NCBI GenBank assembly: GCA_016938055.1
Contig: JAFGVJ010000008.1
Span: 1-33,699, forward strand
Reading direction: 5' to 3'
DNA: 33,699 nucleotides
DNA from: Prolixibacteraceae bacterium
GTDB lineage: Bacteria > Bacteroidota > Bacteroidia > Bacteroidales > Prolixibacteraceae
The translations under genes and the position numbers were made by a program. Positions within the stretch are counted from its first letter, which is position 1, and every line of letters starts with the position of its first letter. Shown one piece after another: positions 11,544-13,689 of this stretch. The notes beneath the pieces were generated by a model, which made no database searches, was not told the origin of the DNA, and saw only the letters and a program-made list of their open reading frames with translations.

Positions 11544-13094
11544 TCAGAAAATAATCTCTTCCAAAGATTCGTCAAAATAATGAGCTTCGAGCAATTGGAT
11601 GTTCTCGTCAGCTATCACTTCAATTCTTTTTTTGTACTTCCAACGCCATTTTCTCAAAATCGATAAAACACCTTTTTTCAGGTAAGCATCCACAAAAGGA
11701 TGCACATGAATGATGATTTTTTTGTGGTTCAGATCGGAAAAGATGTAGTCGATCTTACTGGCAATTTCATCGGTAAATAAAATGGTTGGAGTTACCTTCC
11801 CAGTTCCCTTACAAACCGGACATCCCTCGGCGATGTCGATGTTTTCTTCAGGGCGAACTCTTTGTCGTGTAATCTGCATCAAGCAAAACTTACTTAAAGG
11901 CAGTATGTGATGCTTGGTTCGGTCAATTTCCATGACCTCTTTCATTTTGTTGTACACTTTGTGGCGGTTTTCGGCATCGTGCATATCGATGAAGTCGATC
12001 ACAATAATACCGCCCATGTCCCTTAAACGTAGCTGGCGTGCAATTTCATTGCACGCAGCGAGGTTGACTTCAAGAGCGTTTGTTTCCTGGTCGTTACCGG
12101 CCTTGGCTCTGTTGCCGCTGTTCACATCAATTACATGGAAGGCTTCAGTATGTTCAATAATGAGGTAAGCCCCACTTTTGAAGGTTACTGTTTTGCCAAA
12201 TAATGCTTTAATCTGCTTGTCGATTCCAAAGGAATCGAACATTGGCACCTTTTTGTCATAGAACTTAACGGTTTTCTTTTTATCGGGAGCTATTCCGGCA
12301 ATATAATCAGTCACTTCTTCAAAGACAGCAAAGTCGTTGATATAAATGTTACTGAATTCGGGGGTGTAGATGTCGCGCAAAAGGGAAGTCGTTCTGCTGA
12401 GCTCACCCAGCACAAGGCCTGGGGCCTGAACTTTTTTCAATTTTGGCAATATCGATTCCCACCTGTTTACCAGTCTTTTTAACTCCTGATCCAAATCAGC
12501 CACCCGCTTCCCTTCGGAAGCTGTTCTGATAATGACTCCGTAATTACGTGGTTTGATACTTTGAATAAGTTTTTTTAACCGGTTACGTTCTTCAACGGTT
12601 TCAATCTTTTGCGATACCGATATTTTATCACTAAAGGGCACCAGTACCATGTATCTTCCTGCAATGGATAATTCGGAAGTAAGCCTTGGACCTTTAGTGG
12701 ATATGGGTTCCTTGGCAATTTGTACCATGATGCTCTGACCGGCACGCAACTGTTGGGTAATCTTCCCGTTTTTGTCAATATCTGGTTCGGGATGCAACTT
12801 GATGGTGGGTATAAACCTACCCTTTGATGAAGTTGCATTGTGTAAAAACTTATTCAAAGTAGCGAATTGAGGGCCCATGTCGAGGTAATGCAAAAAAGCA
12901 TCCTTTTCATAGCCAACGTCAACAAAAGAAGCATTCAGCCCGGGCATGATTTTTTTTACTTTTCCGAGGTAAATATCGCCCACTGCGAACTTCGTGCCAC
13001 TTTTCTCCCTGGTCAACTCTACGATACGTTTGTCTTCGATCAAAACAATCACAATCTCAGAGGGACTAACGTTAATAAATAACTCGCTACTCAC
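11544..13094 (-). CDS. rng: Ribonuclease G (Rne/Rng family)
   Basis: FINVSPSEIVIVLIEDKRIVEL ... GDIYLGKVKKIMPGLNASFVDVGYEKDAFLHYLD ... NEIARQLRLRDMGGIIVIDFIDM ... CPVCKGTGKV. Confidence 0.96.
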   Translation of the reverse strand: MSSELFINVSPSEIVIVLIEDKRIVELTREKSGTKFAVGDIYLGKVKKIMPGLNASFVDVGYEKDAFLHYLDMGPQFATLNKFLHNATSSKGRFIPTIKLHPEPDIDKNGKITQQLRAGQSIMVQIAKEPISTKGPRLTSELSIAGRYMVLVPFSDKISVSQKIETVEERNRLKKLIQSIKPRNYGVIIRTASEGKRVADLDQELKRLVNRWESILPKLKKVQAPGLVLGELSRTTSLLRDIYTPEFSNIYINDFAVFEEVTDYIAGIAPDKKKTVKFYDKKVPMFDSFGIDKQIKALFGKTVTFKSGAYLIIEHTEAFHVIDVNSGNRAKAGNDQETNALEVNLAACNEIARQLRLRDMGGIIVIDFIDMHDAENRHKVYNKMKEVMEIDRTKHHILPLSKFCLMQITRQRVRPEENIDIAEGCPVCKGTGKVTPTILFTDEIASKIDYIFSDLNHKKIIIHVHPFVDAYLKKGVLSILRKWRWKYKKRIEVIADENIQLLEAHYFDESLEEIIF

Positions 13095-13151: not shown

Positions 13152-13188
13152 GATTAAACCTAAGTAGCATAGCAACTTAGGTTTAATC
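13152..13188 (-). terminator. 14-bp perfect stem-loop between the HU/micro-ORF unit and rng
   Basis: GATTAAACCTAAGT-agcatagca-ACTTAGGTTTAATC. On the - strand it is followed by CCTTTTATG, on the + strand by gtaatttttt; position is downstream of the 30-aa micro-ORF. Confidence 0.6.
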
Positions 13189-13225: not shown

Positions 13226-13318
13226 TTATTTCTTGCTCTTATGGCGGTTTTTTCTTAATCTTTTTTTACGCTTATGCGTTGCCATCTTATGTCTTTTTCT
13301 TTTCTTTCCGCTAGGCAT
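13226..13318 (-). CDS. 30-aa highly basic protein, AURKAIP1/COX24-domain-like (bS22/mS38-like candidate ribosomal protein)
   Basis: Reverse-strand translation MPSGKKRKRHKMATHKRKKRLRKNRHKSKK*; 17 of 30 residues are K/R plus 3 His. Starts 6 nt after the HU-like stop codon. Too short for the ORF track. Confidence 0.82.
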   Translation of the reverse strand: MPSGKKRKRHKMATHKRKKRLRKNRHKSKK

Positions 13319-13324
13319 AATAAT

Positions 13325-13609
13325 CTATTTTACTTTGTCTTTCACGTGATTCACAAATGTCTTAGCAGGTTTAAATGCCGGGATGTTGTGCTCAGGAATA
13401 ATAATGGTTGTGTTTTTGGAAATGTTACGAGCAGTTTTTTCAGCTCTTTTCTTCACGATAAAACTACCAAATCCTCTAAGGTAAACGTTGTTCCCGTCAA
13501 CTAATGAATCTTTCACTGACTCCATAAAAGCCTCTACAGTTTTCTGAACAGTTACTTTTTCAATTCCTGTGTTCTTTGAAATCTCGTTTACAATATCTGC
13601 TTTTGTCAT
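13325..13609 (-). CDS. HU/IHF-family DNA-binding protein
   Basis: MTKADIVNEISKNTGIEKVTVQKTVEAFMESVKDSLVDGNNVYLRGFGSFIVKKRAEKTARNISKNTTIIIPEHNIPAFKPAKTF. Confidence 0.96.
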   Translation of the reverse strand: MTKADIVNEISKNTGIEKVTVQKTVEAFMESVKDSLVDGNNVYLRGFGSFIVKKRAEKTARNISKNTTIIIPEHNIPAFKPAKTFVNHVKDKVK

Positions 13610-13655: not shown

Positions 13656-13689
13656 CAAAGATAATTTTTTTCCAATAATAAATACCAAA
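13656..13689 (-). promoter_or_regulatory. Candidate Bacteroidetes-type promoter for the HU-like gene
   Basis: On the - strand: TTTG (13689-13686), 22-nt spacer, TATCTTTG (13663-13656), matching the -33 TTTG / -7 TAnnTTTG consensus, about 47 nt upstream of the HU ATG. Confidence 0.6.

Follow-up and report, generated by a model that had tools for sequence, protein, structure and literature searches.

The open reading frame at positions 13226 to 13318 on the minus strand of the window (the whole 33,699-nucleotide stretch of DNA analysed) is, with a probability of about 0.96, the bS22 ribosomal protein gene of a Bacteroidales genome, probably one from Prolixibacteraceae. We take it to form an operon with the gene for HU and, by orthology, its product to serve in a pocket of the 16S rRNA. 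The gene encodes an already known ribosomal protein and its novelty is low. A hairpin downstream may be the sole part of the locus that is new.

The bS22 gene and its matches to solved ribosomal chains

The features of the locus are as follows.

13226..13318, minus strand: bS22 gene, 30 amino acids, ATG start, TAA stop; assigned from its sequence, phylum-wide conservation and the PDB matches 9i5v_10, 7jil_5 and 8fmw_V.
13325..13609, minus strand: gene for an HU-family DNA-binding protein of 94 amino acids (PF00216, E = 9e-28), 6 nt upstream of bS22.
11544..13094, minus strand: rng, ribonuclease E/G family, GTG start (TIGR00757, 444 bits against a cut-off of 326, E = 5e-133; PF10150, E = 2e-98); the downstream neighbour.
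13656..13663, minus strand: match TATCTTTG to the promoter -7 element TAnnTTTG, 54 nt upstream of the HU start.
13152..13188, minus strand: hairpin GATTAAACCTAAGTTGCTATGCTACTTAGGTTTAATC in the bS22-rng gap; candidate terminator/attenuator or regulatory site.

Reading from 13318 to 13226 on the minus strand, the product is MPSGKKRKRHKMATHKRKKRLRKNRHKSKK. It contains 17 K/R (11 K and 6 R) and 3 His among its 30 residues. Amongst the 184 ATG-start frames of 25-45 codons in the window, this is the sole frame with at least 45% K/R. The HU stop codon, TAG at 13327-13325, is followed by ATTATT and then by the bS22 ATG at 13318, giving the 6-nt spacing; rng starts 131 nt downstream of bS22. The initial annotation had recorded the coordinates, strand, sequence, K/R and His counts and HU gap, all exactly, and had placed the frame between HU and rng, as the PF00216 and TIGR00757 matches listed above confirm.

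A search against all PDB chains returned three distinct sequences, each aligning with the window protein ungapped and over the full length. The best, 9i5v_10, is named 'AURKAIP1/COX24 domain-containing protein' (E = 2.9e-10); this chain, found in 9I5V/9I5X, has the same length as the window protein and is 93% identical to it. The next is 7jil_5 from Flavobacterium johnsoniae (E = 1.2e-9, 87% identity). It has a common length with the window protein and differs by few substitutions: M12V, L21A, K23A and S28K. The third, 8fmw_V, is Borrelia burgdorferi bS22 (bb0822; E = 2e-5, 70% identity). This protein shares the pattern MPxGxKRK...THKRKK..RKNRHK but has a shorter tail and a GUG start (PMC10618245). 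A profile built from 16 homologues returned the same three PDB sequences and nothing further; since the profile includes the 7JIL and Borrelia sequences, it is independent only as a test for further matches.

The exact 7jil_5 sequence is encoded between HU and rng at two loci, L170 and L172, in genomes of the same class (G117 and G230). The window has the same HU-bS22-rng order. Hence, by both sequence and gene position, the window protein is the orthologue of F. johnsoniae 7JIL chain 5. The initial annotation had proposed a bS22/mS38-like ribosomal protein, and this is borne out by orthology to bS22 chains of Bacteroidota and Borrelia ribosomes (PMC10618245, PMC10085706). It had also suggested a role in ribosomes or RNA; the ribosomal part is supported, since the orthologues are built into ribosome structures. 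The frame had further been called unannotated. That holds for the ORF track then used, but not for the PDB, where a homologue already bears the AURKAIP1/COX24 name given above.

Among its five PDB entries, the 7jil_5 sequence carries two conflicting names, 30S S22 and 50S L38. We use bS22 rather than the L38 name because the Borrelia chain is named bS22 and because of the literature.

Conservation, gene order and alternative readings

In six-frame searches, 59 of 61 related genomes had bS22, as did 289 of 297 sampled across the phylum. Selection and gene order were measured in 80 named loci, fetched with HU as bait and nearly all from Bacteroidales. Judged by HU, the closest named relatives belong to Prolixibacteraceae, which makes this the probable family of the window. 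Within the 80 loci, 23 of the first 29 bS22 residues are invariant. Synonymous change is near saturation (pS 0.85) and pN is 0.03, giving a pN/pS of 0.037. Consensus frequencies at codon positions 1, 2 and 3 are 93.5%, 99.9% and 66.9% respectively.

In all 80 of these HU-anchored loci bS22 lies close downstream of HU, which tblastn places directly upstream. The same search places rng downstream in 79; the 80th locus ends with its contig. Both neighbours are also present in all 30 loci from the first search. Altogether, bS22 adjoins HU in 110 of 110 family- and order-level loci, and the order HU-bS22-rng is kept in 109. The initial annotation had named amino-acid conservation and HU-rng synteny as points to check, and both were found (289/297 genomes and 109/110 loci). 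An apparent double copy in one genome, G022, was considered and set aside; the copies look like contig-edge pieces, one without rng and the other with a truncated HU, and not like a duplication.

More distant members of the phylum differ in arrangement. Here, 22 loci have bS22 with HU elsewhere and no rng, and 11 have bS22 with neither. Thus, the peptide is more conserved than its neighbourhood. At five loci from distant members (L064-L067 and L069) a diverged HU, 43-48% identical, lies ~100-150 nt upstream of bS22 and rng is not nearby. The HU-bS22 neighbourhood may therefore predate the association with rng.

No copy was detected by six-frame search in 8 of the 297 phylum genomes, which argues that bS22 is not universally required. 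The eight include all three genomes of genus f60/g144 (99% complete, one of them in two contigs) and three of at least six genomes of genus f48/g124. Searches of the genomes without a match, using the Borrelia protein, the 16-sequence profile and COX24_C, gave nothing convincing. Six nearly complete phylum members are without detectable bS22: G207, G255 and G259, which belong to one genus, and G287, G335 and G347. Lineage-specific loss or strong divergence is possible in these six. For G001 the gap is probably one of assembly, because rng is missing there too. Lineages that have no detectable bS22 offer natural tests of what the protein does.

These data bear on three other readings of the frame. 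One is an accessory DNA- or RNA-binding peptide that works with HU or RNase G, is not a component of the ribosome, and has a neighbourhood that reflects its function. The very basic peptide would suit such a role, as would adjacency to HU, which is strict in Bacteroidales and seen also in Flavobacteriia-like genomes. However, orthologues are built into ribosome structures, and bS22 persists without HU and rng beside it at the 22 and 11 distant loci described above. We consider this reading very unlikely. A frame that is open by chance in A-rich DNA, and is not a gene, is the least credible explanation, with a likelihood close to nil. It could appeal to the very short length and to the lack of a family match above curated cut-offs, but conservation of the amino acid sequence across the phylum, alongside saturated synonymous change, and the solved homologues refute it.

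The remaining alternative, that the window protein is bL38 of the F. johnsoniae 50S subunit, draws on the naming conflict: at least one PDB entry with the 7jil_5 sequence is named 50S ribosomal protein L38. Yet PMC10618245 treats bL38 and bS22 as different proteins, the former beta-stranded and bound at 23S H95/H97, uL6 and uL14; it also places bL38 on the 50S subunit near H95 and the sarcin-ricin loop. Moreover, the Borrelia bS22 chain of that study is the one that matches the window protein. We regard identity with bL38 as extremely improbable. The comparison with bL38 proposed by the initial annotation was accordingly rejected, bL38 being a separate 50S protein. Assignment of the window protein to bS22 is retained.

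Predicted ribosomal site and relatives in other lineages

Borrelia bS22 occupies a pocket formed by 16S h2, h27, h44 and h45, and touches 23S H68 (PMC10618245). That source equates this site with that of F. johnsoniae and mycobacterial bS22, mS38 and eL41. In Cutibacterium acnes, bS22 bridges the two subunits through 23S H67 and also touches the neck (PMC10085706). In yeast, loss of mS38 reportedly perturbs h44 close to the decoding centre as well as the initiation of translation on some mitochondrial mRNAs (PMC6582356). By orthology, the window protein would sit in the h2/h27/h44/h45 pocket, below the decoding centre. From there it could reach 23S H67/H68, adding an inter-subunit contact. It would be expected to stabilise upper h44 and the neck, as in Flavobacterium, Borrelia and mycobacteria, with mS38 and eL41 doing likewise in mitochondrial and eukaryotic ribosomes. 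That the product of the window gene binds and acts as its orthologues do is inferred from orthology.

The window protein resembles actinobacterial bS22 (NF047430; Mycobacterium smegmatis and C. acnes) in length and basic character, and is predicted to share its pocket (PMC10085706, PMC10618245). PMC10085706 gives 37% identity between the C. acnes and F. johnsoniae proteins. Aligned in register, 11 of 30 residues of the window protein are identical to M. smegmatis bS22. This similarity is only moderately above that of shuffled sequences, which attain the in-register score in 280 of 100000 trials and, with every register allowed, the best score in 193 of 5000.

With Pfam PF08213 (COX24_C), the window protein scores 9.3 bits (E = 1.4), below the curated cut-off of 23 bits, whereas the mycobacterial control scores 46.2 bits. 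Seven of 16 homologues match COX24_C at E values up to 10, the best being 0.054, and nothing exceeds the PF08213 cut-off in 16 genomes (the source genome and 15 others of the phylum). Similarly, NCBIfam NF047430 (ribo_bS22, cut-off 34 bits) recognises mycobacterial bS22 at 62.6 bits but misses the window protein and the solved chain of F. johnsoniae alike. Hence, the 'COX24-type' label of the initial annotation is apt as an analogy but does not extend to formal COX24_C membership. With both models missing it, Bacteroidota-type bS22 is left without model-based annotation. A protein that is near-universal in the phylum, yet falls below the Pfam and NCBIfam cut-offs and usual ORF lengths, is easily missed.

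Mitochondrial mS38 (AURKAIP1/COX24) and eukaryotic eL41 are found at the same site of the small subunit (PMC10618245, PMC6582356), although mS38 is much longer than the window protein. No direct sequence match to mS38 was obtained from the window protein or its profile, and the profile search with the homologues did not find actinobacterial bS22 either. Common descent of the Bacteroidota-type and the actinobacterial bS22/mS38 branches is plausible.

Transcription of the unit and the hairpin preceding rng

The sequence TAnnTTTG is the -7 element of Bacteroidota promoters. All 78 of 78 loci have it in the 150 nt that precede HU, with 10.4 expected. In the bS22-rng gap it is at background (20 of 126, with 15.5 expected). 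Very probably, bS22 and HU share a transcript that begins at the Bacteroidota-type promoter before HU. Since TAnnTTTG is not enriched before rng, rng may be read through from the HU transcript.

A hairpin follows bS22 in 95 of 126 bS22-rng gaps. Its lower stem, AAACCTAA/TTAGGTTT, is conserved in sequence. Within the 3.37-Mb assembly the core AACCTAA/TTAGGTT has a single copy, in the bS22-rng gap. Thirteen of 16 family genomes contain one or two copies of a slightly longer core, and one of these always lies just after bS22. The upper stem covaries, with pairing kept through changes: the two inner pairs form in 72 and 78 of 89 sequences (shuffles, 42 and 43) and the two outer pairs in 67 of 89 (shuffles, 39 and 40), counts that are indicative only because the sequences are related. 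No Rfam family matches the hairpin region.

Processing or feedback sites exist in the E. coli rne and rng mRNAs. The hairpin, the tail of which is only moderately T-rich, fits both a site of this kind and a weak terminator keeping rng lower than HU-bS22. A more specific proposal, which we advance tentatively and think rather less likely than its negation, is that it is a dedicated cis-regulatory RNA, and not a plain terminator, setting the level of RNase G from the HU-bS22-rng transcript in Bacteroidales. Such an element may act through RNase G feedback, cleavage by another RNase or protein binding. Together, the HU-bS22-rng unit and its conserved hairpin connect genes for nucleoid, ribosome and RNA decay in a concrete way that can be tested. 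In other lineages, different stems are found at the same place after bS22.
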